Below are positions 8,053 to 26,132 of a stretch of 64,000 nucleotides of DNA, piece after piece; positions within the stretch are counted from its first letter, which is position 1; each line of letters opens with the position of its first letter. The position numbers were made by a program, and so were the translations under genes. Source of the stretch: Seongchinamella unica (GTDB lineage Bacteria > Pseudomonadota > Gammaproteobacteria > Pseudomonadales > Halieaceae); the NCBI RefSeq assembly GCF_004354085.1, contig NZ_SMSE01000006.1, positions 1 through 64,000 on the forward strand, read 5' to 3'. A model generated the notes under the pieces. That model did no database searches, was not told where the DNA came from, and worked only from the letters and a program-made list of their open reading frames with translations.

Positions 8053-8213
8053 TGTTGATTTGCACCCAAATTTGACCCTGCATTTGCACTGAATTTTGCC
8101 CCGGGTGAAGGGCGCCAAGTGTGTGACATGCGGGCATATCTTTGCGCGTAGATGGATCACTCCGTGATGCAATTATCGCTTCAAAAAGGGTCAGATTTGG
8201 ATGCAAATCAATA
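8053..8213. repeat. 161-bp inverted-repeat element, copy B
   Basis: Second copy of the element seen at 3108 and 19170. Its ends pair almost perfectly: TTGATTTGCACCCAAATTT on the left against the complement of AGATTTGGATGCAAATCAA on the right. A second unit of the terminal motif (TTTGCACTGAATTTTGCCCC) follows the left end. The right end runs directly into the zntB fragment and supplies its apparent ATG. Confidence 0.8.
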
Positions 8214-8446
8214 CCCATGAGGAACTGGTGACCCGGGTGTCGGAGGAAATGAACCGGCGCTCTTACGTGTTTACGGTGGTGGCGACCATATTCCTTCCAC
8301 TGGGTTTCTTCACCGGCCTGATGGGTATCAACGTGGGCGGCATGCCAGGTGTGGACGCGGATGCCGCGTTCTGGATAGTAGTGGCCATGTGCGCCGGCAT
8401 CATGGTGGCGCTGGCACTGTTGTTTCGCCTCAATCGATGGCTTTAA
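8201..8446 (+). pseudogene. Truncated ZntB/CorA-type metal transporter (C-terminal fragment)
   Basis: The frame encodes only the last 80 or so residues of a CorA-superfamily transporter. It has the end of the long stalk helix (THEELVTRVSEEMNRRSYVF), then TM1 with LGFFTGLMGINVGGMPG, which is the ZntB-type variant of the CorA GMN pore motif, then TM2 and the positively charged tail RLNRWL. The roughly 240-residue cytoplasmic domain is absent. The first codons (MQIN) come from the right end of the 161-bp element, so insertion or deletion at that element removed the 5' part. Probably non-functional, though a short membrane peptide could still be made. Confidence 0.75.
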
Positions 8447-8485: not shown

Positions 8486-10123
8486 TTATTCGAGCGGGCT
8501 GAGGAAGCCGCAGGGGCACAGCTCGATGCACTTGCCACATCCCTCACAAATATCGGGATCGAAGCTAAAGTAGTTGCCGGGTGTGGGATTCTCGACGGGC
8601 GTAAAGCTGCCGGCATTGCAGTACATCCAGCACTGGAAGCAGCCCAGGCACGAACCGCAGGACAGGCAGCGCTCGGCCTCGGCCAGGAACTCCCGTTCAC
8701 TGATCGTCTCAGCGACTTCGAGCGCGGGATTGCGCAGGCGCAACTCTGCGCTTGCCTCGTGGTCGGCGACCCGGTCGATGTGAACGTAGCGTTCGGTCTT
8801 GACCTTTGGCGATTCGTGTTCCTCGGAGCTTTCGGAGGGTTCGATGTCACAGGCCCTCAACGCGGCCTGCTTCCCTTCGGCGATGGCGGCGCTGGCGATT
8901 CCCTGATGCAGCACGTCGCCACCTGAACTGACTCCCGGAGGTGCCGCCTCAGGGCCTGGACCTTCGGGTACCGCCTGCTCCAGCCCCTGCCAGTCGGGCT
9001 CCTGCGAAACCGCAATGACCACCGTCGTGGCGGGTAGCTCCGTGGCGCTGTCCTGAATGGGCTCTGGCACATGCCGGCCGCTGCCATCGGTCGGCCCGGT
9101 GCGCATGTGCTGTACGACCAGTCCGCGCAGCTCGCCTGATGGGGCGTGCAGGATCTCCAGGGGAACGGTCAGCCCCATGAACTCGACGCCCTCGGCCCGG
9201 GCCTGTTCGATCTCCGCAGCGATGGCCGGCATCTCTGCGAGTTCGCGCCGATAGACGACGGTGACCTCGGCCCCGTACCTGCGCCCGACACGCGCCACGT
9301 CGATGGCGGTGTTACCGCCGCCTATAACCAATAGCTGATCTCCGGCGGATATGGGCTGTTCGGTGTTATGGCGCTCCAGGAATTGGGTGCCGGTCCATAC
9401 GCCGGGCCCGGTTTCGCCCGGCACATTGAGCATGCGGGCCCGTTGCGCTCCCAGACCGAAAAACAGGGCCTGGTGCCGGTCCCTGAGTTCATCCAGGGTC
9501 AGGTCCCTGCCGATGCGAACATCGGTCTGTATCTCCACCCCGAGGTCGACGATCCGCTGAATTTCCCCGTCCAGCACGTCGTGAGGCAGCCGGTAGTCCG
9601 GCACACCATAGCGCAGCATGCCTCCCGCGTGTGGGTGCCAGTCATAAACGGTGACCGCGTGACCACGGCGTGCCACCTGGTAGGCAAACGAGAGTCCTGC
9701 TGGACCGGCACCGATCACGCCAAAAGAACGACGCTCTTCGGCGGGCGTGAGACAGGGCAGTTGCAGGCCCTTGTCCAAGGCCCAGTCCCCCAGGAAACGT
9801 TCCATGCTGCTGACGGCGACCGCCGAATCTGTATCGCTACGATTGCACTGCGACTCACAGGGGTGGGGACAGATTCTGCCCATGACTGCGGGAAACGGGT
9901 TATTGTCCACGATCCGCTCCCAGGCCTGGGTGTAGGCGTCCTCGGTGGACAGTCCCATGCTTTCGCGCTGCGCAATCGGGGCGATCCAGTCACGGATGCT
10001 GGTCCCGCAGGGACAGTTGTCCTGGCAGGGGGCCACCTTGGGTGCCAGGTCCGGTTTCAGTGGACTAAAAGCGAAGCCCTCCCCGGACGGAGGGGCTCCC
10101 TTGTCAGTGGCGTCGGTGCTCAT
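8486..10123 (-). CDS. GltD-like NAD(P)H/FAD oxidoreductase with C-terminal ferredoxin domain
   Basis: A 545-residue flavoprotein of the glutamate-synthase small-subunit type. The N-terminal Fe-S helical domain (CQDNCPCGTSI, RICPHPCESQCNRSD) binds [4Fe-4S] clusters. FAD (GVIGAGPAGLSFAY) and NAD(P) (LLVIGGGNTAIDVA) Rossmann motifs follow. The C-terminus adds a cysteine-rich segment (CLSCGSCLGCFQCWMYC) and a ferredoxin-type CEGCGKCIELCPCGF, absent from ordinary GltD. It should move electrons between NAD(P)H, flavin and several clusters to a partner protein. ATG overlaps the stop of the upstream cNMP-binding gene (ATGA), with GGGAGG six bases upstream. Fourth and last gene of the leftward cluster; no GltB partner is present. 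Confidence 0.85.
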   Translation of the reverse strand: MSTDATDKGAPPSGEGFAFSPLKPDLAPKVAPCQDNCPCGTSIRDWIAPIAQRESMGLSTEDAYTQAWERIVDNNPFPAVMGRICPHPCESQCNRSDTDSAVAVSSMERFLGDWALDKGLQLPCLTPAEERRSFGVIGAGPAGLSFAYQVARRGHAVTVYDWHPHAGGMLRYGVPDYRLPHDVLDGEIQRIVDLGVEIQTDVRIGRDLTLDELRDRHQALFFGLGAQRARMLNVPGETGPGVWTGTQFLERHNTEQPISAGDQLLVIGGGNTAIDVARVGRRYGAEVTVVYRRELAEMPAIAAEIEQARAEGVEFMGLTVPLEILHAPSGELRGLVVQHMRTGPTDGSGRHVPEPIQDSATELPATTVVIAVSQEPDWQGLEQAVPEGPGPEAAPPGVSSGGDVLHQGIASAAIAEGKQAALRACDIEPSESSEEHESPKVKTERYVHIDRVADHEASAELRLRNPALEVAETISEREFLAEAERCLSCGSCLGCFQCWMYCNAGSFTPVENPTPGNYFSFDPDICEGCGKCIELCPCGFLSPLE

Positions 10124-10512
10124 ACACCACCTCCCCGCTGGCTTTCCAACTGTTGCTTCAGGTGCGCGATGTTACCATCCAGGTTGCGTACGCGATGGCA
10201 CAGTACTTCCAGGACACTCATGGCCAGGGAAGGATCCTCCTGGATGCGCCGCATGAAGGTCTTGCGATCGATGGTAATTGCGCGAACGGTGCCGCGAGCC
10301 TTCACGGTAGACGACCGAACTGTATTCTCGACGATAGCCATTTCTCCGAACAGCTCACCCGCTTCCATGGTATCCACAACGGTGGGCCGTCCTTCCTCCA
10401 TGCGGATAACATCGGCGGTACCCTGTTGGATGATGTACATACAATCGCCCACTTCGCCCTCGGTGATGATGATTTCACCGTCCTGGTATACGCGGCCCAA
10501 CTCTTCGTTCAC
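10120..10512 (-). CDS. Stand-alone cyclic-nucleotide-binding domain protein
   Basis: About 130 residues making a single Crp-type beta-roll. GEIIITEGEVGDCMYIIQQG lies at the front, and the phosphate-binding cassette GELFGEMAIVENTVRSSTV has the FGEM-A...RS pattern that contacts cAMP or cGMP in the family. A helical tail (CHRVRNLDGNIAHLKQQLE) follows and there is no DNA-binding domain, so it is a ligand sensor, not a transcription factor. A much longer open frame exists, but translation most likely starts at GTG 10512, which overlaps the upstream stop (GTGA) and has GGGGGG about eight bases upstream. Four-base overlaps with both neighbours imply coupled translation. Confidence 0.8.
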   Translation of the reverse strand: MNEELGRVYQDGEIIITEGEVGDCMYIIQQGTADVIRMEEGRPTVVDTMEAGELFGEMAIVENTVRSSTVKARGTVRAITIDRKTFMRRIQEDPSLAMSVLEVLCHRVRNLDGNIAHLKQQLESQRGGGV

Positions 10513-12017
10513 GATGCGGTTACCCCCCGTTTTCTCGCAGACGGCAAACGCAGGTTTGCCGCGGCGAGATTCCATAGCAGCCGGGATATGAATACAGGGT
10601 GTAGCGTACGCAGCAACACTTCCCGATAAGGAGCGCTGCCTGTAAACACGTCCCACAGTACACTGCTCATTCGCGGTGCCACGCCGGCACCGTATTGCTC
10701 CTGTTCTGTCATTCTCAGTACGCCCCGTCGGGCAAAGGTCAGCCTCTGTATCAGGTGGCAGACACCGAATACACATTTCCCGATCATGTTGTCGAATACG
10801 ATCTTGCGGCAGGCAGGCCAGTAATGTTCTTTGAAATTGCGCTCGGAATAGCCGTACAGGGCTACGCAGTTCGCCGCCGCTTTCGCGGTTCGATAGGCCG
10901 AGCCGATGCCATCCTTGTAGAGGCGAGCCACGCCACTGTCGCCAATGAATACGACGCGATCGGCGTAGGGCTTGCGGGCGTGGGTGACGTTGAGCCGCGG
11001 CAGGCACTGGCAGATGTTCTGCGGAGGTCGGTTGTCCGGGAAGCACCTTCTGACTTCTTCGGCATTCAGGAAGGCATTCACCAGCCCCTCGTCCACCTTG
11101 TCGCCCAGCATGACCAGTGTCACGTAGTCCCCCTTGGGAATCAGCGCGGCGAACTGCAAATGCGGCAGGTCCAGCAGGAACACGTTCATAGAGCTTCCCA
11201 GGTGCCGTTCCACGGCGGCGGCACCGAGTTTGAATTCGGCCACGAATGACTTTGCCATTTGCGGGCGACTGAAGCCGCGGCCGGTCTGCTCGACGAGTCC
11301 GAGCAGGGCACTGTTGAGCCCGCTGGCAACCACCACCAGGTCATAGGATTCCTTGCGGCCGTCTGCCAGTTTAATTTGTGGGTGCCCGCTGTCGAAATCC
11401 ACCGAGGTAACCATGTGGGGTCGGTGATGGGCGCCTGCCCGTACGGCCTCCCGCAGCAGGTAGTGATCAAAGCCGGTGATGTGGGATTGCTCGGATTTTT
11501 TCGGCCCATGGCCTCGGTAAACGGCCGCGATTCGTTTCTCCTGCAGGGGCGTGTCGATCCTGACGCTGCCGACGTCCATATGCATGACATACGAATCTAT
11601 GCCGCGTTGCACGGTTTCATCCGGAAGAATAATGCCGTCCGCGGCCAGCAACTGCACCAGTGATTCCGAGACGACGCCGCCGCAGTGGTTGCACCCCGCC
11701 GGACCACAGTAGTTGAAGTTTCTCGGTTCGAAGATGTCCAGCTCGATGTGGGTGCCGATGCGTCGCAGCGTGCGCATCAGGAAACGGGAAAACAGGGTTC
11801 CTGCGGGACCGCCTCCAACTACCGCAACACGATTGCCGTCGGTCAGGCAGAGACCGTCGGTAGAGTGGGGATCTGGTGCGTTGTTATGTCCGGATCCGCT
11901 GCCGGTCCCGGTCCGCCACGAGTCCGGGTCGGTAAGAATGCGAACAGCCTCGGGCTGAACCTTATTCCCGTCCTTTTCGTCGGGCCTGGAAATCTTATTG
12001 TTGTATTTCTGAACCAT
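10509..12017 (-). CDS. FAD-dependent oxidoreductase, geranylgeranyl-reductase-like, Cys-rich
   Basis: A 502-residue protein. After a polar 60-residue N-terminal extension comes a Rossmann FAD motif (VAVVGGGPAGTLFSRFL, residues 64-80). Then comes an unusual cluster, YCGPAGCNHCGG (Cys104, 109, 112), in the position where geranylgeranyl reductases and related group-2 flavoproteins bind substrate. DLVVVASGLNS and VVFIGDSGVARLYKDGIGSA are the later FAD-contact motifs (GD motif). The C-terminal ~100 residues are helical and may be membrane-associated. It probably reduces an isoprenoid, quinone-like or other hydrophobic substrate. GGAG about seven bases upstream supports ATG 12017. It is coupled by overlap to the cNMP protein. 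Confidence 0.75.
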   Translation of the reverse strand: MVQKYNNKISRPDEKDGNKVQPEAVRILTDPDSWRTGTGSGSGHNNAPDPHSTDGLCLTDGNRVAVVGGGPAGTLFSRFLMRTLRRIGTHIELDIFEPRNFNYCGPAGCNHCGGVVSESLVQLLAADGIILPDETVQRGIDSYVMHMDVGSVRIDTPLQEKRIAAVYRGHGPKKSEQSHITGFDHYLLREAVRAGAHHRPHMVTSVDFDSGHPQIKLADGRKESYDLVVVASGLNSALLGLVEQTGRGFSRPQMAKSFVAEFKLGAAAVERHLGSSMNVFLLDLPHLQFAALIPKGDYVTLVMLGDKVDEGLVNAFLNAEEVRRCFPDNRPPQNICQCLPRLNVTHARKPYADRVVFIGDSGVARLYKDGIGSAYRTAKAAANCVALYGYSERNFKEHYWPACRKIVFDNMIGKCVFGVCHLIQRLTFARRGVLRMTEQEQYGAGVAPRMSSVLWDVFTGSAPYREVLLRTLHPVFISRLLWNLAAANLRLPSARKRGVTAS

Positions 12018-12094
12018 CCTCCCTCTCCTTTCACCTACTGGATGATTCCTATATTTAAGCTAACACTAGTTTTCTGACGGATACATGCGATAGG

Positions 12095-13567
12095 TCAATA
12101 ACTCGTCTCTTCTTCCCCGCGGGATTCGATGTATTTCTGGAAAGCGCCCATCACCACGCGATGAATAGCGGCCTGGGTGGCGAGGTAGAAGTGCCAGGGC
12201 AGGGCTGGAGCGAAGTCGTGAATCGCTATCATGGCGTGGCTGCCCCCCGGTACCTCGCGAAACTCCATGCGGCCGTGGCTGTTGCGTGCGCGGGAGGCCA
12301 GCAGGCCCTCGGTGATGGCATAGACCCGCCGGTCAGCGCTGCTGCGCTCCGGACTGAACTCCAGGCGTAACAGGCAGGTCTTCAGGCCGTTGATACGCAT
12401 GCAGTAGGATGAATTTTCCAGTGTCTGACACTCAATAAAGGGGTTGAGATAGGCCGTCAGCCAGTTGAAGTACCTGCGTGACAGCCAGCTGGCATCTCGA
12501 CCAGGTGGCAGTCTGACGCGCTGAATTGAACGCACGGTATTGGAAGATCTCAGTTGCTCGCCGTAGCTGTCTCGCAGCCTGCGGCGAAAGCGCACTGCCT
12601 GGCGTACCTCGTCCTTCCCCCTGACCAGGTTGATCGCGTCCAGGGCGGGTTGCAACTCCGGCTGCAGGAAGTGCTGCAGGGGGTTGTCATGCGCGATGGT
12701 GTCGAATTGCAGGTTCTCGACAAAGAGCTGCAGTGCCTCGGGATGCGCCCCGGGACGCACCTGTCGCAGAAGCCATGCATAGACCCGCGGTGAGAGTCGC
12801 CGCGTGCGGAAGAACTTCGGCCGGGCGCCGGTCAGCTTTGCTGCTGCCTCCAGTAATTCCTGCCAATGTATCTTCTCGGGTCCGCCGATCTCGAACCTGC
12901 CGACGAACTGCGAGGGCTGCTGCAGGCAGTGTCGGAAGGCGCGCACGAGATCATCCACCGCGATGGGCTGCATCGCCTGCAGGCTCCAATAGGGTACCGG
13001 TACGAAAGGGGAGCGCTTCACCAGGTTTCTGATCAGCCTGATCATGGCGCTGCCGGGTTCAATGACGAGTCCCGAGCAGATGACGGTGAGCGGTGTTTTG
13101 TAGGCGCCCATAATTTCCCCGATCTGGTGATGTCGGATCTGGGCGTCACAGACAGTGCCACCGGTAGGCAGCAGTGAGCGGAGACAGTAGATGTGCTTCA
13201 CCTGGCACTCTTCGGCAGCACGGGCAAAATTTTCCGCCATGAGCAGGTCCATATCACCGCAGTTGGCCTGGTGCAGGCGGGAGTTGGGCAGGCCCGAGTG
13301 CGCCATGAAAATGGCGTACTGCGAGCCCTCGAGAATGCGTTGCATCTCGGTGAGGGAAAACAGGTCGCAGTGCTGCCATGTAACCCTGCCGTCCGGGTCT
13401 CCCGCGCTCGCTCGGGTCTCGATGCCGGTTACCGCGAGCACGTCATAGTCACGGGCCAGTTCATGGCTCAAGGTTTCCGCGATACTGCCGGCAGCGCCTA
13501 CGATGGCAACGCGACTGCGGGGCTGGCCAGCCTGCAACTGCTCATTCTCTGTTGGCGGAAATGTCAT
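12095..13567 (-). CDS. NAD(P)-binding SDR-like protein with large C-terminal domain
   Basis: A 490-residue protein. Residues 18-300 form an atypical/extended SDR domain: VAIVGAAGSIAETLSHEL for cofactor binding, then ICSGLVIEPGS and FEIGGPEKIHWQELLEAAA, typical of NmrA/complex-I-NDUFA9-like SDRs. A classical YxxxK is not evident (HHQIGEIMGAYKT stands near that place), so it may bind NAD(P) without catalysis. Residues 330-490 resemble SRPBCC/DUF2867-like extensions but are not assigned. It is the first gene of the leftward cluster, 77 bases before the FAD reductase, in the same direction. An A/T-rich stretch in that gap could hold a second promoter. Confidence 0.65.
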   Translation of the reverse strand: MTFPPTENEQLQAGQPRSRVAIVGAAGSIAETLSHELARDYDVLAVTGIETRASAGDPDGRVTWQHCDLFSLTEMQRILEGSQYAIFMAHSGLPNSRLHQANCGDMDLLMAENFARAAEECQVKHIYCLRSLLPTGGTVCDAQIRHHQIGEIMGAYKTPLTVICSGLVIEPGSAMIRLIRNLVKRSPFVPVPYWSLQAMQPIAVDDLVRAFRHCLQQPSQFVGRFEIGGPEKIHWQELLEAAAKLTGARPKFFRTRRLSPRVYAWLLRQVRPGAHPEALQLFVENLQFDTIAHDNPLQHFLQPELQPALDAINLVRGKDEVRQAVRFRRRLRDSYGEQLRSSNTVRSIQRVRLPPGRDASWLSRRYFNWLTAYLNPFIECQTLENSSYCMRINGLKTCLLRLEFSPERSSADRRVYAITEGLLASRARNSHGRMEFREVPGGSHAMIAIHDFAPALPWHFYLATQAAIHRVVMGAFQKYIESRGEEETSY

Positions 13568-13733: not shown

Positions 13734-14286
13734 GGTACAGGCAAGTTAACTTCTAAAGACTGTCCTAATCCTACCTTGAATCTCAAGCAACCGCCCTACC
13801 CCAATCTTCAAACGCACTTACCCTCAGATTCCGATAGTGTTCAGTTCTGACCAGGTGCCTACCTAGATTGAACAGATTGGAAACAGCCGCATGGGCACCG
13901 AGAAATCTCTGTGCCCGCCCAATTGATTTGAATCGCCTCATCCCTCGCTCTCTCACCCTGGTCTACAGCACGCCACAAGTAATGTCGCTTACCGTTTATC
14001 TTGACGAAGACTTCATCGATGTAGAAAGTATCACCATAGCCTCTTTGCTTTCGCTTCAATCTTCGAGTGTAGATAGCTCCGAACTTGATACACCAAAGGC
14101 GGATGGACTCTCGGCTGACGGTTATGCCTCGCTCGGCCAGTAAATCTTCAATATCGCGGTGGCTCAGATTGAAGCGATAGTAGAGCCAGACGGCGTAACT
14201 TGTGATGTCGGGCGGGAATCGGTGGCGTTTGTAAGTGTTCACATGCCGATTCTAGCCGAAATCAGCGACTTAACTTGTCAGTACCC
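13734..14286 (-). mobile_element. IS6-type element with both terminal repeats and an internal deletion
   Basis: Both ends are visible: GGGTACAGGCAAGTTAACTT at 13734-13753, and at the right end the inverted GGGTACTGACAAGTTAAGTC finishing at 14286. They agree at about 16 of 20 positions. Between them lies a transposase that has lost most of its DDE core, leaving a 553-bp element where an intact IS6 element would be roughly 0.8 kb. No 8-bp target duplication is visible. This is the best reference for recognising the other relics in the window. Confidence 0.8.
13783..14242 (-). pseudogene. IS6-family transposase, internally deleted and frameshifted
   Basis: The N-terminal part (MNTYKRHRFPPDITSYAVWL onward) has the helix-turn-helix segment SHRDIEDLLAERGITVSRES and the first catalytic Asp region YGDTFYIDEVFVKINGKRHY. 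After about residue 96 the frame breaks. The C-terminus continues in another frame as MRRFKSIGRAQRFLGAHAAV and ends DWGRAVA with TGA at 13783. Roughly 100 residues, including the second Asp and the Glu of the DDE triad, are missing, so it cannot be active. Confidence 0.85.
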
Positions 14287-15994: not shown

Positions 15995-16798
15995 TCAAAG
16001 TGGTTTACGACCCATAAACCTGGCACTCCAGACAGAGCCCGCATACTGCCGCAACAACCCGTCCACCTGATCACAATCGAGGTCAAAGCCTGGAATATCT
16101 TCACTGAGAATGGCGCGGAGCTGAGCTGCATCGTAGACCAATCGCTCACTCACCTCGACGTCCTCAAGTCCTGCCTCGCGTAAACCGGCACTGTATTCAT
16201 TTTCCGAGATGGCCCCGGCCACACAGGCAGACCATGCCGCCACACTCTCGCGAATAACCTCGGGCAGGTCACCTACAACCATATCCGAGATCATGAACCG
16301 CGCCCCCGGTTTCATTACACGGGCAATCTCACGGAAGACCGCGGTTTTGTCCGGTGACAGGTTGATCACACAATTTGAGATCACCCAGTCCACTGAGCCA
16401 TCTTCTACCGGTAAGTGCTCGATCAAACCCTTGCGCACTTCGATGTTGTCGAATCCCGCCCTGGCAGCGTTCCGTCTCGCCGCGAGCACCATCTCATCTG
16501 TCATATCGACCCCTATGACCTTGCCACTCGGACCGGTTTTCTCCGCTGCCAGTAGCAGGTCCAGACCGCCTCCGCAGCCCAGGTCGAGCACCGTGTCACC
16601 CTCGCGAACGCCCGCGAAAGCAACGGGGTTCCCGCAACCAAGGGAGGCGCCAGCCGCTTCAGAGTGTTTGGCTGAATCGCCGTACCCAGCCAATTTTGCC
16701 GTCGGGCTGGTCGCGCAGCAGCTACCCTGTTCCTGCGCTTTTTTCAGCATGTCCGCATAACTTTTCCTGACGATGTCATGGGTTTCGGAAGCTTTCAT
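15995..16798 (-). CDS. arsM: Arsenite S-adenosylmethionine methyltransferase ArsM
   Basis: A 267-residue class I methyltransferase. The SAM motif VLDLGCGGGLDLLLAA lies at residues 70-85, and GVDMTDEMVLAARRNA forms motif II. Three cysteines characteristic of ArsM are present: Cys55 in ASLGCGNP, Cys143 in SNCVINLSPDK and Cys192 in WSACVAGA. A CC pair lies at residues 27-28. It converts As(III) to methylated and ultimately volatile arsenicals using SAM and thiols in the cytoplasm. Length and order of motifs are normal. No arsR, arsC or pump gene is adjacent; it stands alone, convergent with the IPTL-CTERM gene. Confidence 0.9.
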   Translation of the reverse strand: MKASETHDIVRKSYADMLKKAQEQGSCCATSPTAKLAGYGDSAKHSEAAGASLGCGNPVAFAGVREGDTVLDLGCGGGLDLLLAAEKTGPSGKVIGVDMTDEMVLAARRNAARAGFDNIEVRKGLIEHLPVEDGSVDWVISNCVINLSPDKTAVFREIARVMKPGARFMISDMVVGDLPEVIRESVAAWSACVAGAISENEYSAGLREAGLEDVEVSERLVYDAAQLRAILSEDIPGFDLDCDQVDGLLRQYAGSVWSARFMGRKPL

Positions 16799-22064: not shown

Positions 22065-24512
22065 TCAGGATTCCCAGCTGCCGTTGCGATAGAACTCCAT
22101 CTGCTTGCCCTCCAGACGCATCAGGTGCAGCCAGCGATTATCCAGCAGCTGCCGCACGACCTGATGCTTGTCGATCACGCCCTCGATCGCGTCTCGGGGC
22201 GCTGCGATAACCACCGTCAGCCGCAACGGGTTGTGTAGCCAGCGTTCGCCATCGTTCAGCGACTGCCAGGGCAGCCCGATGCGCAGGTCGCCGCCATTGC
22301 CCTCAAAGACGCCGATGCGCCCTCCGGCCACGTTGTGCAGCGTCTTGTTGCCACTGCCAAACCGCCTGTTGTCCACGGTCGAGGCGTAGTACTGCATGTT
22401 GATCCAGTGGGTGACGATCATGGGCGCAGTCATGATCAATTCCAACAGGCTGCCGTCGATGTCCTTACGGTAGTCGTAGTCATGGAGGAAACTGCGGCCC
22501 TGTAAGTTCACACCCCGGGTCCTGGCTCGCGGCGCAATAATGAAGGCGGCATTGTTTGCCAGCCCCCATTCGGGCCGCGTCTGGGCCCAATCATCAGCGC
22601 GCTGGCGCAGCGCCTTCTGCAGGGCCTCCGGTTCCTGCGCCAGCCCCCCCAGACCCAAGGCGGGCGCTCGCTCTGCGCGAGCGGCTGCGCCAGCCGCGGC
22701 AAGCTGTGCCTGCACACGCTCGAGTTCCTGGCTGTGGCTCGCGGGCACGTCGTGCAAATCAAAGAGAGTGACTTCGTCGGTGGTGGTATTGTGCAGGCCG
22801 GCGATAAAGTGTGTGCTTTCGGGCACATGTATTCCTCTGGTCGCCAACTGCTGACGTACCGCAGCGTCGTTGAGCAGCCCGGCCAGGGCCCGGGCATTGA
22901 CCTCACCGGTCTGCCCGCAACAGGCGCCGCAGTCCAGGCCAGCCCGGTGCGGGTTGTTGCGGTTTTGGCTTCCGTGCCCGACCAATAGTACCAGCGGCGC
23001 AAAAGACTCGCCCAAACCCATACCGGCCAACACCTGGGCCGCGATGTCCGCCTGGCCCTCAACGCCACCCGCTGTGGCCGCGTCCAGCGTCGGTTTTACC
23101 TGTGCTGCTTGCCGGGCACCCAGACCCAGCGTGTCCGCGGAGGCCGGAGGCGTCTCTGCGGGCAAGGTGCGCTTGATCAGTTTGCCCAGATATCCCAGCC
23201 CCAGCGACTCCACCAGGGTAAAGCTGGACAGCGGCACTGACTCAAACACCCGCCAGCCCGACATCGCGCGCAGCTTCCGGGCCCTGTGGACGACAATGTC
23301 AGCATCCCGGGCGGCATTCCCGGCGCTGTCCGTGATAGCCAGCTTCGGTGCCAACAGTCCGGGCAGCTGGGGCCGCCGCGCCCGGGTTCCCAGTGGGGCG
23401 TAGCTGATCGGCAAACCAAAAAAACCGGCAAATCCCAGACTCTGGATATCAGCTGACTGGGCCTCCAGATGGCGCCGAAACACTTCCGAGCGCACATCGA
23501 TACAAAACGCCGCCTGCAACGCCGGCTCCACGGTCACGTCCGCGGCCGGTGCCGACAGCAGACTGTGGCGTAAACCTCGCTGATAGCTGAGCTCATGGGC
23601 ACGCTGCCAGACAAGCGAGACCTGGAGCGAGCTGCAGTCCTCGTCGGCAGAGCGCTTGAGCCAATCTTCTCGCCACGCCGACCACTGGGAGTTGTAGCCC
23701 CTGCTGCCATCGTCCAGAAGCGCCTCCCAGCTCAGGCGAATGGCAAGCAGGTCGATCAGGGTGTCGTCATCACCGCCATCAAGGCGCGCCTGCCAGCGCA
23801 GGTAGGCACACCAGGCAGCCCAACCGCTCACCCGCATCAACACGGCCTGGAGATAGCCCGGCCATTCAGATTCCGGTACCGCCAGCTGCACCAGTGTGTC
23901 CAGAATCTGTTGCTGCGGGTCCTCCGCCAGGGCTGTCGCCTTGGCGGGAATATGCGGTGCACGCATCAGCAAAGCCACGCTGTGGTCATCGCCCAGCGCG
24001 CTGCGCCAGCTGGCATAAAGCCGGCCGCCCTGGTCCGGGTGCCAGTCAGCCTGCTCGCGGTCGAAGTAGGCGGCACAGAACTGGGACACCTGGTGGGTTA
24101 TGGTGTCGCACCAGGCCGGCTCCTGTTGCAGATCACGTTTGCGATCCAGCACATCGCTCAGCAGTGGCAGCGGGACCGGCGCAGGTTGCGGTGACTCCAG
24201 CGCGGCGATGAGTTGTCCCACACTGAGCTCGCTGTCGGTCTCTGCCAGCGCCAGCTGCAAGTCTGGCTCAGTGATGTCACCACGTTTCCAGGCAGCGGCG
24301 TAGTCTCGCAACGGCAGGGTCATGGGAGAGCCGGCGCAACGCGCCATGGCTGCGGCCACTTTGTCGAAGGGTTGATCAATCCACCCCCAGTAGGGATTTA
24401 CCGCAATCATCCTGTCCAGCGGCCAGGTCGGAGCGATGCTATCAATAGCGGCGGCAATGGCCGAAGGCAGCGTTGCAACATTCGGCAACAAGGGTTTGAC
24501 GGGAGCGTTCAC
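22065..24512 (-). CDS. dabA: DabA-type inorganic carbon accumulation protein (DUF2309)
   Basis: An 815-residue cytoplasmic-face subunit of the DAB inorganic carbon pump. The beta-carbonic-anhydrase-like zinc ligands are in place: Cys337 and Asp339 in FCIDVRSEV, His513 in VGHGSQNRNNPHRAG, and Cys528 in LDCGACCGQTGE. The 15-residue spacing of the last two fits the family. The complex hydrates CO2 to bicarbonate inside the cell, driven by the cation gradient through DabB. Translation starts at GTG 24512, overlapping the dabB stop (GTGA), with AAGGAG seven bases upstream, so the two are co-translated. A dead second dabA tail lies at 7.9 kb. Confidence 0.9.
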   Translation of the reverse strand: MNAPVKPLLPNVATLPSAIAAAIDSIAPTWPLDRMIAVNPYWGWIDQPFDKVAAAMARCAGSPMTLPLRDYAAAWKRGDITEPDLQLALAETDSELSVGQLIAALESPQPAPVPLPLLSDVLDRKRDLQQEPAWCDTITHQVSQFCAAYFDREQADWHPDQGGRLYASWRSALGDDHSVALLMRAPHIPAKATALAEDPQQQILDTLVQLAVPESEWPGYLQAVLMRVSGWAAWCAYLRWQARLDGGDDDTLIDLLAIRLSWEALLDDGSRGYNSQWSAWREDWLKRSADEDCSSLQVSLVWQRAHELSYQRGLRHSLLSAPAADVTVEPALQAAFCIDVRSEVFRRHLEAQSADIQSLGFAGFFGLPISYAPLGTRARRPQLPGLLAPKLAITDSAGNAARDADIVVHRARKLRAMSGWRVFESVPLSSFTLVESLGLGYLGKLIKRTLPAETPPASADTLGLGARQAAQVKPTLDAATAGGVEGQADIAAQVLAGMGLGESFAPLVLLVGHGSQNRNNPHRAGLDCGACCGQTGEVNARALAGLLNDAAVRQQLATRGIHVPESTHFIAGLHNTTTDEVTLFDLHDVPASHSQELERVQAQLAAAGAAARAERAPALGLGGLAQEPEALQKALRQRADDWAQTRPEWGLANNAAFIIAPRARTRGVNLQGRSFLHDYDYRKDIDGSLLELIMTAPMIVTHWINMQYYASTVDNRRFGSGNKTLHNVAGGRIGVFEGNGGDLRIGLPWQSLNDGERWLHNPLRLTVVIAAPRDAIEGVIDKHQVVRQLLDNRWLHLMRLEGKQMEFYRNGSWES

Positions 24513-26062
24513 AGCGGTTCTCCTTGCAGGGCAGATTCTCGTATGGCGAGGGTTTGGGCCTGGGTGGCGCTCAGTTTCACCGGCCAGATTTTAAAGGTGA
24601 GCCGGGTGTAGGTTTCATCGAGGTAAAACCCACAGTAGGCCCAGGGATAAAAGGCCCGGGCAAAGCGGCCTTGCGGGTGGCAACGCAACCAGACCTGGGT
24701 GCCATAGAGCACCACAAAGCTCAGCATGACCCAGGCAACCAGTGGCGAGGCAACGTCCGCCGGCGCCGGGGCCAGTGCCGCAAATGCGACATGCCAGAGC
24801 AGGTAGAGCTGAGTGAGAGCCAGAATCTGCAGGACACCGCGAATCAACAGCTCGCCGTTGCTCTGCTGTTCCATCCACAGCAGGGGCGCCAGGCCCAGGG
24901 TCACAACCAACAGCGCCACCGGCGGCACAGACAGGGAGGGCAGGAAAAACTGCCAGGCAGCGGTGGACCCAGCGACCAACGCCGCGCTGAGACCCACGGC
25001 AGCCAGGTACCAGACGGGGGTGCGTTTCGAGGCTCCGGGCGACAACAAATCGTTACTGCGCGCAGTGCGCACGGCCTCCCCCGCACTCAGGAAAGCGTGT
25101 GCCTTGTAAAGTGAATGCGCCACAAGGTGCAGCAATGCCAGCTCGTAAAGCCCCAGTCCTATCTCCATGAGCATAAAGCCCATTTGTGCACAGGTTGACC
25201 ATGCCAGTCGCACCTTGATGCTGATACGCGTCAGCATCACCAGGCCGGCCAGCACTGCAGTGAGGCTGCCCACGACAACCAGCGCCCACTGTGCGGCGGG
25301 GGCCAGCGAGAGCAGGTCTGCCAGCCTGATCAGGATGAATCCACCCATGTTGACGATACCGGCATGCAGTAGCGCTGACACCGGCGTGGGTGCCTCCATG
25401 ACCTGGATGAGCCAACCATGCAACGGCAACTGCGCTGTTTTCAGGATGGCGGCCAGTGCGAACAACAGCGCCGCCCAGTGCAGGGCAGTGGGCAGTGAGG
25501 CGGCGCTAGACAGGTACTCATTGAGGCCATCCAGTGACAGCGTACCCACCGATTGGTAAACCAGCAGCAGTGCAATGGCCAGGCAGACCTCGGCAAAGCG
25601 GCTGACCAGGAATTTCTTGTGCGCCACGATCTGGGCGGCCTTGCGCTCATGATAAAAGGTCAACAGGTAGTGCAGCCCCACGCTGGTTCCCGTCCAAGCC
25701 AGCACAATAACCAGGAGGTTGCGACTGGTGACCAGCACCGACACCGCCGCCAGGGTGAACACCATGGCGCGAATAAACCGAACCTGGTTGGGCTCGCCAT
25801 TCAGGTAGCGGGAGGAATAATTGACAATCACCCAGCCCAGTAAGGCGACCAGCAGGGCCACCGTGAGCCCCGGCGCGTCAACGCGCAAGGGAGCGAGTTG
25901 CGCCCACACCAGTGCCAACAGCGTCATTGCGCCGGTAGCGAGCAGACCTGCGGTTGCGGTGGTACGAGCCAGCTGCCATTGCTCGTGATCTCGCAGGCAT
26001 AACAGGATAAAACCTGCCGTGTAAATCAACGGTAACAGCCAACCGCCATGAAAATCTGTCAT
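24509..26062 (-). CDS. dabB: DabB-type membrane subunit (NuoL/MrpA-like)
   Basis: About 517 residues with 13 or so membrane helices of the complex-I NuoL/Mrp antiporter type. Conserved pieces include VNYSSRYLNGEPNQVRFIRA, the lysine-bearing FALAAILKTAQLPLHGWLIQ and APTPVSALLHAGIVNMGGF. HLVAHSLYKAHAFLSAGEAV carries the discontinuous-helix His/Lys. In DAB pumps this subunit carries the cation that powers DabA. ATG 26062 with AGGGGA about seven bases upstream is preferred to the longer frame. First gene of the leftward dabBA operon, divergent from a LysR gene. Confidence 0.9.
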   Translation of the reverse strand: MTDFHGGWLLPLIYTAGFILLCLRDHEQWQLARTTATAGLLATGAMTLLALVWAQLAPLRVDAPGLTVALLVALLGWVIVNYSSRYLNGEPNQVRFIRAMVFTLAAVSVLVTSRNLLVIVLAWTGTSVGLHYLLTFYHERKAAQIVAHKKFLVSRFAEVCLAIALLLVYQSVGTLSLDGLNEYLSSAASLPTALHWAALLFALAAILKTAQLPLHGWLIQVMEAPTPVSALLHAGIVNMGGFILIRLADLLSLAPAAQWALVVVGSLTAVLAGLVMLTRISIKVRLAWSTCAQMGFMLMEIGLGLYELALLHLVAHSLYKAHAFLSAGEAVRTARSNDLLSPGASKRTPVWYLAAVGLSAALVAGSTAAWQFFLPSLSVPPVALLVVTLGLAPLLWMEQQSNGELLIRGVLQILALTQLYLLWHVAFAALAPAPADVASPLVAWVMLSFVVLYGTQVWLRCHPQGRFARAFYPWAYCGFYLDETYTRLTFKIWPVKLSATQAQTLAIRESALQGEPL

Positions 26063-26132
26063 CCGGGTTCCCCTGTTGCGCGACCATAGTGACTCTTGAT
26101 GGCGACATCCTGAGGCCAATTCATCCTTTTGT

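Follow-up and report, generated by a model that had tools for sequence, protein, structure and literature searches.

Which protein does a cyclic nucleotide monophosphate (cNMP)-binding domain serve when it is encoded on its own, between the genes of two flavoproteins? The question is raised by a cluster of four genes in the marine bacterium Seongchinamella unica (Halieaceae; contig NZ_SMSE01000006.1, positions 1-64,000; this whole stretch of 64,000 nucleotides is called the window here). In it a short-chain dehydrogenase/reductase (SDR)-like protein, a geranylgeranyl reductase (GGR)-like FAD protein, a stand-alone cNMP-binding protein (the cNMP protein) and a GltD-like flavoprotein are encoded in this order, in tandem on the minus strand. 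Sequence comparisons show that the pair of GGR-like and cNMP genes, and not the quartet, is the finding: the pair is real and conserved, and appears to be undescribed in the open-licence PubMed Central (PMC) literature. The features of the cluster are listed below (cassette, overlaps and YRR motif as read on the sequence; lengths in amino acids, aa).

12095-13567, minus strand: SDR-like protein, 490 aa, with an N-terminal NAD(P)-binding epimerase-type domain (PF01370, 1.3e-7); optional member
10509-12017, minus strand: GGR-like FAD protein, 502 aa (TIGR02032, 44.4 bits; PF13454, 9.7e-6); core member
11682-11693, minus strand: C109-x2-C112, first half of the four-cysteine set of the GGR-like protein, invariant in 46/46 family and 5/5 paralogue rows
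11004-11012, minus strand: C336-x-C338, second half of the four-cysteine set, likewise invariant (46/46 and 5/5)
10120-10512, minus strand: stand-alone cNMP-binding protein, 130 aa, GTG start (PF00027, 1.1e-21); core member
10297-10350, minus strand: phosphate-binding cassette of the cNMP protein, FGEMAIVENTVRSSTVKA (Glu57, Arg66)
10509-10512, minus strand: GTGA stop/start overlap of the GGR-like and cNMP genes
10120-10123, minus strand: ATGA stop/start overlap of the cNMP and GltD-like genes
8486-10123, minus strand: GltD-like FAD/Fe-S protein, 545 aa (Fer4_20, Pyr_redox_2, C-terminal Fer4_7); accessory, Halieaceae
9245-9253, minus strand: Y291-R292-R293 (YRR) in the NAD(P) domain of the GltD-like protein, invariant in 3/3 aligned rows
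8510-8668, minus strand: C-terminal ferredoxin-type domain of the GltD-like protein, with cysteines 492-502 and 526-536 (each CxxCxxCxxxC) and extra cysteines 486, 489 and 538, invariant in 3/3 rows

The initial annotation of this DNA had placed the four genes here and had read the overlaps GTGA and ATGA among the last three; both are borne out by the sequence, and a gap of 77 bases separates the SDR-like from the GGR-like gene. Mechanical calling gives 10120-11046 as the longest open reading frame (ORF) in the cNMP frame, which would overlap the GGR-like gene far more than the 130-aa form does; the short form fits the ORFs of relatives in Halioglobus (locus L015, 130 aa) and Haliea (L016, 143 aa).

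Conservation of the GGR-like and cNMP genes

We collected 46 GGR-like loci from 33 genomes of two phyla: the window, L015, L017, L021, L023, L037 and 40 fetched regions, the latter a non-random choice of best-scoring matches and second copies among a longer list of matches. Each locus was counted once (L010, L016 and L023 are one locus of genome G022, and L015 and L122 are one locus of G1214); the paralogue locus L038 was excluded, and L121, found later, stands outside the 46. Based on six-frame profile searches, a cNMP domain lies within 1 kb of the GGR-like gene in 34 of the 46 loci, and five loci are cut by a contig end. By chance, a cNMP domain would be that near to about 1.7% of genes (669 PF00027 matches in 95.9 Mb of 24 carrier genomes, 12-52 per genome). 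Within the 46 loci themselves, 36 cNMP domains are found within 1 kb of the GGR-like gene, versus four in the remaining ~460 kb. No cNMP domain was found in the 10 control loci of a GGR paralogue (nine genes from nine genomes), eight of which have flanks of only ~1.5 kb. The association of the GGR-like and cNMP genes is far above chance, and the SDR-like and GltD-like genes are local additions.

The partner gene is found in several places and forms. With respect to the GGR-like gene, 18 of the 34 partners lie downstream and 13 upstream on its own strand, and three are on the opposite strand; the domain stands alone, or is fused to a degenerate GGDEF domain or to a degenerate HD domain. Most of the downstream partners (14 out of 18) lie in stop-to-stop frames of 122-193 aa, the other four being the window protein (130 aa in a frame of 406), those of L100 and L101 (frames of 405) and the HD-fused partner of L105.

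The initial annotation had regarded the four genes as one unit. The pair is indeed kept across two phyla, but the four genes are no obligate set: the GltD-like gene is present in four Halieaceae clusters and the SDR-like gene in two. Judged by its own yardstick, regular separation of the genes in other genomes, the four-gene unit is partly refuted, because the GltD-like and SDR-like genes stand beside the pair only in Halieaceae clusters. An obligate four-gene system was rejected on the basis of tblastn searches (E<=1e-10) of the 46 loci, L121 and L038, which place the two genes in few loci.

Co-inheritance of the pair

In a tree of the GGR-like proteins (51 rows), a clade with support of 100/100 unites those of the window, L015 and L023; it is joined by L017 and then L037, both from the actinobacterial phylum (98/96); all of these have the cNMP gene directly downstream. 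Across the tree, different gene arrangements retain a cNMP partner. The window cNMP protein scores 160-532 against the 33 other GGR-adjacent cNMP domains, and 46-154, lower in every case, against seven of the ten other cNMP domains of its own genome, the seven that this comparison covers. Pairwise distances of the GGR-like proteins and of their cNMP partners (34 pairs) are correlated with r 0.915, a value inflated by shared species history, and none of 2000 permutations gave a correlation as high. We read the two genes as one old pair that has been moving and evolving together.

The GGR-like flavoprotein family

The GGR-like protein scores 44.4 bits against TIGR02032, for which the cut-off is 158.8, and so fails the test for this family. 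The GxGxxG motif is present as GGGPAG (residues 68-73) and is invariant in 21 of 21 rows except for A72, which is nearly invariant. The substrate/catalytic motif of GGRs, YxWxFP, was found in none of 51 rows; at its aligned place, judged by eye, FAAxIPK is found in 31 of the 46 family rows. With this motif absent and the score far under the curated cut-off, we rejected a true geranylgeranyl reductase. The hydrophobic substrate proposed in the initial annotation had rested on the resemblance to GGRs, and it loses its footing as the protein fails their substrate motif.

Residues C112-G113-G114 resemble the CGG active-site motif, and C112 is invariant (46/46); its structural equivalence to Cys47 of SaGGR is putative. 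Out of eleven alignable cysteines of the window protein, only C109, C112, C336 and C338 are invariant in the family, and these four are invariant in the paralogue rows too. The CxxxxCxxC cluster noted earlier for this protein therefore stands in its CxxC half (C109 and C112), but its first cysteine, C104, occurs in just four of 46 rows. A set of CxxC and CxC could accommodate a 4Fe-4S cluster or a zinc site, or could work as a dithiol relay; the four cysteines probably either ligate an Fe-S cluster or form a redox-active dithiol pair. When a 21-row profile was searched against the PDB, only short, weak flavoprotein matches were returned. The proteins would seem to be a family of FAD oxidoreductases of their own, with geranylgeranyl reductase as the nearest curated model.

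We searched for the family with the window protein or a four-row alignment (A1) as query. Four of 58 relatives have a match at E<=0.001: S. unica (G000) and G022 with the family proper, and G006 and G035 with a weaker paralogue only. A single-sequence contig scan, which is limited to close relatives, gave three loci, in Halioglobus (L015), Haliea (L016) and an uncultured actinobacterium (L017). Among 369 genomes of the window's class, two have matches at 1e-20 (G000 and G386); two matched among 396 genomes of the actinobacterial phylum of L017 (G425 and G722), and 40 among 398 genomes of the window's phylum, namely G000 and 39 from outside its class. The lineage rich in the family (families f230-f256) belongs to the window's phylum and lies outside its class. 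Ten of 140 genomes of the window's own family matched, four with the family proper (G000, G1214, G022 and G1219) and six with the paralogue type only (two of them partial). The GGR-like family was not found in the plasmid collection. In the samples searched, few genomes of the window's class or of the actinobacterial phylum have it, and it is common in one other group of the window's phylum. The genome of S. unica also encodes a GGR-like paralogue of 675 aa (G000:C5 11629-12975; L022:5976-8003, minus strand), which shares the four cysteines and is extended at its C-terminus by a part that no Pfam family matches; proteins similar to it are found in several other Halieaceae and in G425, and no cNMP domain is near the paralogue in the loci examined.

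The cNMP protein

The cNMP protein has a single match, to PF00027; the C-terminal helix-turn-helix (HTH) of CRP/FNR factors is absent and no enzymatic domain was matched, in agreement with the earlier description of a cNMP domain that has neither a DNA-binding nor an enzymatic partner domain. Its AlphaFold2 model (mean predicted local distance difference test score, pLDDT, 75.2) has a beta-roll and a long C-terminal helix (residues 94-127), and no HTH. The nearest folds in a Foldseek search with this model are CRP-type proteins and Bd1971 (template modelling score about 0.5-0.6), and in profile comparisons the set of cNMP domains is nearest to the regulatory domains of protein kinases G (PKG) and A (PKA). 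The Glu and Arg of the cassette of cyclic nucleotide-binding domains, which we take to be ligand contacts, are present in the window protein as Glu57 and Arg66; both are kept in 25 of the 34 partners, and Arg in 29. The same genome has three PF00211 (class III cyclase) matches over the cut-off, one of them 1.2 kb from another cNMP domain.

Accessory genes

The nearest model of the GltD-like protein is NF009410 (PRK12771), with 481.4 bits (profile positions 45-560 of 566), close to and below the cut-off of 516; it fails the GltD models TIGR01316 (268 versus 471.75) and TIGR01318 (218.4 versus 482.95). Its C-terminal ferredoxin domain matches Fer4_7 with 26.6 (cut-off 27) and Fer4 with 22.1 (cut-off 21.1). 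The domain order is that of DsrL (N-terminal Fe-S region, FAD/NAD(P) domains, C-terminal two-cluster ferredoxin; linker length is outside this comparison), and passages of the DsrL paper connect the YRR motif with NADP(H) preference (PMC7596348). There is no GltB beside it, as had been noted: its neighbours are the cNMP gene and a CorA-type fragment (8201-8446), the rest of the genome not having been searched for GltB.

The order GGR-like, cNMP, GltD-like is intact in all four Halieaceae carriers (the window, L015 of G1214, L023 of G022 and L121 of G1219), and these are the only loci, among the 46 and L121, with a GltD-like gene beside the pair (tblastn, E<=1e-10). The same search located the SDR-like gene in two loci only, those of the window and L015, both of which are among the four Halieaceae clusters; among 136 relatives, an orthologue at E=0 is found only in G000 and G1214, and 14 others have distant relatives (1e-21 to 1e-25). 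The C-terminal part of the SDR-like protein (12095-12601) has no Pfam match at E<=1. Close relatives of the GltD-like protein are rare in the class sample (one of 274 genomes at 1e-120). All 26 carrier genomes tested have a GltD-like match at 1e-60, and outside G1219 none of these adjoins GGR genes in the loci examined. Three of four fetched GltD-like loci from the f230-f256 lineage (L140, L141 and L142) have neighbours that look like DsrA/DsrB by eye, and their GltD-like proteins may be DsrL. L038 has a GltD-like protein (34% identical) beside a GGR paralogue, without a cNMP gene; the same locus, of the actinobacterial genome G425, contains a frame of a molybdenum-hydroxylase FAD subunit with an inserted GltD-like protein, by eye (L038:3-2474, minus strand).

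Two other kinds of gene are found close to the pair. Directly upstream of the GGR-like, cNMP and GltD-like genes of L121 (5119-7293, plus strand), one protein combines RyR, TPR-S and a divergent class III cyclase-like region. In nine loci (L068, L088, L091, L092, L097, L098, L102, L103 and L106) a metallo-beta-lactamase-type gene (HxHxDH) precedes the GGR-like gene on the same strand, at a distance of at most 400 bases. An ODP/flavodiiron identity of the latter was dropped, as HxHxDH is present in 9/9 and the two proteins scanned match PF00753 better than PF19583.

Proposed function and alternatives

Tentatively, and with less than full conviction, we favour the view that the cNMP protein acts in trans as a regulatory subunit of the GGR-like flavoprotein, which in Halieaceae would receive electrons from NADPH via the GltD-like protein. 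The small cNMP protein would bind the GGR-like protein, probably as a dimer formed via its long C-terminal helix, and binding of cAMP or cGMP would alter its grip and so switch the flavoprotein on or off, by analogy with the PKA regulatory subunit acting on its kinase. In Halieaceae, NADPH would reduce the FAD of the GltD-like protein, and the C-terminal ferredoxin domain would hand the electrons to the GGR-like protein. This proposal starts from observed gene order, overlaps, pair conservation, co-inheritance, cysteine invariance and intact cassette residues. Speaking for it are the frequency of the pair, the distance correlation, the cassette residues that 25 of 34 partners retain, the GltD-like gene in four out of four Halieaceae clusters, the YRR motif together with the ferredoxin domain, the cyclase matches of S. 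unica and the cyclase-like region of L121.

Several points weigh against a regulatory subunit. Seven of the 46 loci have full flanks and no adjacent cNMP gene in the six-frame profile search (L069, L070, L073, L077, L087, L088 and L097). On the contig of L073 there is a cNMP domain whose cassette is similar, at a distance of ~6.8 kb. Nine of the 34 partners are without Glu, Arg or both, so nucleotide control cannot be universal. The distance correlation is raised by species history, as said above; the predicted structure of the GGR-like protein (four-row alignment, pLDDT 47.9) is unusable for cysteine proximity or a fold search. The cyclase-like region of L121 matches PF00211 positions 4-181 of 183 at 18.1 bits, under the cut-off of 21.9, and a single-sequence search returned no similar region from the window or from 47 loci. 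Finally, contact between the two proteins, dimerisation, nucleotide binding, gating by cAMP or cGMP, the direction of electron flow and the type of cofactor are what we infer from the sequences.

A broader form of the proposal is possible, if doubtful: a free cAMP/cGMP receptor would be the dedicated regulatory subunit of a new four-cysteine (Fe-S or dithiol) flavoprotein family, and, with the receptor fused elsewhere to degenerate domains of the cyclic di-GMP (c-di-GMP) type, signals from cyclic mononucleotides and cyclic dinucleotides would converge on a single redox switch.

The same fusions bear on the strongest rival, a redox- or ligand-sensing module, which we consider somewhat unlikely. 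Here the GGR-like protein would be the sensor and the cNMP fold its coupler to outputs (GGDEF-type, HD-type or histidine kinase); the role of the GltD-like protein of Halieaceae would be to set, or to read out, the redox state of this sensor. Such outputs are indeed found: the alignment of the 13 upstream partners extends over a GGDEF-type domain (a Pfam match was run on L086 only), HD fusions occur in L021 and L105 (HD_5, Pfam) and in L095 and L096 (by motif), the pair is followed by a hybrid histidine kinase in L102 and L107 (Pfam) and by a PAS/kinase-like protein in L017 (by eye), and a PAS-GGDEF-EAL gene lies near the pair of L086. However, the GG[DE]EF motif is absent in 13/13 fused GGDEF domains, which have forms such as GEDRF, GADRF, AEDRF or GRSRF instead, and the fused HD domains read YD in 4/4 (places by eye in both cases), so these domains are unlikely to be active enzymes, which leaves a scaffold role unaffected; and no such output gene adjoins the pair in the Halieaceae clusters.

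The HD-fused partners also bear on a second and clearly less probable alternative, in which an ordinary flavoenzyme has the cNMP fold as a nucleotide-insensitive docking or stabilising subunit. Glu and Arg are both lost in these four partners (L021, L095, L096 and L105) and the pairing persists, and because of this the cNMP fold may also act as a docking module; yet all four that have lost both residues are HD-fused, and both are present in the window partner and in 24 others. A bacterial polyprenyl or geranylgeranyl reductase fed by an NADPH:ferredoxin-type protein, as the initial annotation implied, is very improbable: the weak TIGR02032 match, the Cys-Gly-Gly of active-site type and the ferredoxin-type donors through which reducing equivalents are thought to reach GGRs in passages of PMC6309074 would suit it, but YxWxFP is absent from 51/51 rows, the score is far below the curated cut-off and CxxC...CxC is not among the GGR motifs in the portions consulted of PMC10821996 and PMC6309074.

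Comparison with known systems

No report of a cNMP-binding domain with geranylgeranyl reductase, or of Halieaceae with geranylgeranyl reductase, was found in the open-licence PMC literature. Partial likenesses to the pair are known, as described in excerpts of the papers cited. In cNMP-fused thioredoxin reductases (ATII-TrxR and Cupriavidus relatives; PMC6544261) a cNMP domain is likewise coupled to an FAD oxidoreductase with cysteine centres; those are single fusions of the Pyr_redox_2 class, whereas here there are two proteins and a flavoprotein with CxxC...CxC. Bd1971, a cAMP-sensing c-di-GMP phosphodiesterase (PMC6717892), has a short CRP-type cNMP domain that controls an enzyme, and is near in fold to our cNMP model; in contrast to the pair, this domain is fused to an active EAL domain and has no flavoprotein. 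In Family 2B encapsulins (PMC8346489), a cNMP domain has been proposed to regulate a metabolic protein in trans; no shell protein was recognised in the window cluster.

The two flavoproteins can be compared in the same manner. The GGR-like family shares with archaeal and chlorophyll GGRs (TIGR02032; PMC6309074, PMC10821996) the dinucleotide-binding motif, a Cys-Gly-Gly that in GGRs is near the flavin, and a plausible ferredoxin-type donor, but it differs in the missing YxWxFP, the score (44 versus 159), the extra conserved cysteines and the cNMP gene as usual neighbour. The GltD-like protein is similar to DsrL and PRK12771-type proteins (PMC7596348) in its N-terminal Fe-S region, FAD and NAD(P) domains, C-terminal ferredoxin and YRR (as in DsrL-2); unlike DsrL, it adjoins the GGR-like/cNMP pair, and no dsrAB or GltB was recognised beside it (no search for dsrAB was made).

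The four-cysteine flavoprotein family exposed here is nearest to the GGR model and yet fails the tests for GGRs, and the recurrence of its pair with a cNMP domain in distantly related bacteria points to a second-messenger-controlled redox reaction or redox signal of an undescribed kind. Most known bacterial cAMP/cGMP receptors exert their effect on DNA, or else form part of a fusion with an enzyme or a channel. If the proposal is true, a free receptor subunit kept with one flavoprotein across phyla would be a bacterial counterpart of the regulatory subunit of PKA and a direct link between second messengers and electron flow.

Surroundings of the cluster

Next to the cluster lie, on one side, an IS240-type transposase fragment (13859-14242, minus strand, 127 aa) and, on the other, a C-terminal piece of a CorA/ZntB-type transporter (8201-8446, plus strand, 81 aa); these fragments would fit a horizontally acquired segment. 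A methyltransferase gene (ArsM-like by eye) lies near the cluster both in the window (15995-16798, minus strand) and in L015 (13087-13938, plus strand), at differing positions. Farther away in the window (22065-26119, minus strand), a DabA-type inorganic carbon transporter subunit and a Proton_antipo_M membrane subunit are encoded by two genes with a four-base overlap.

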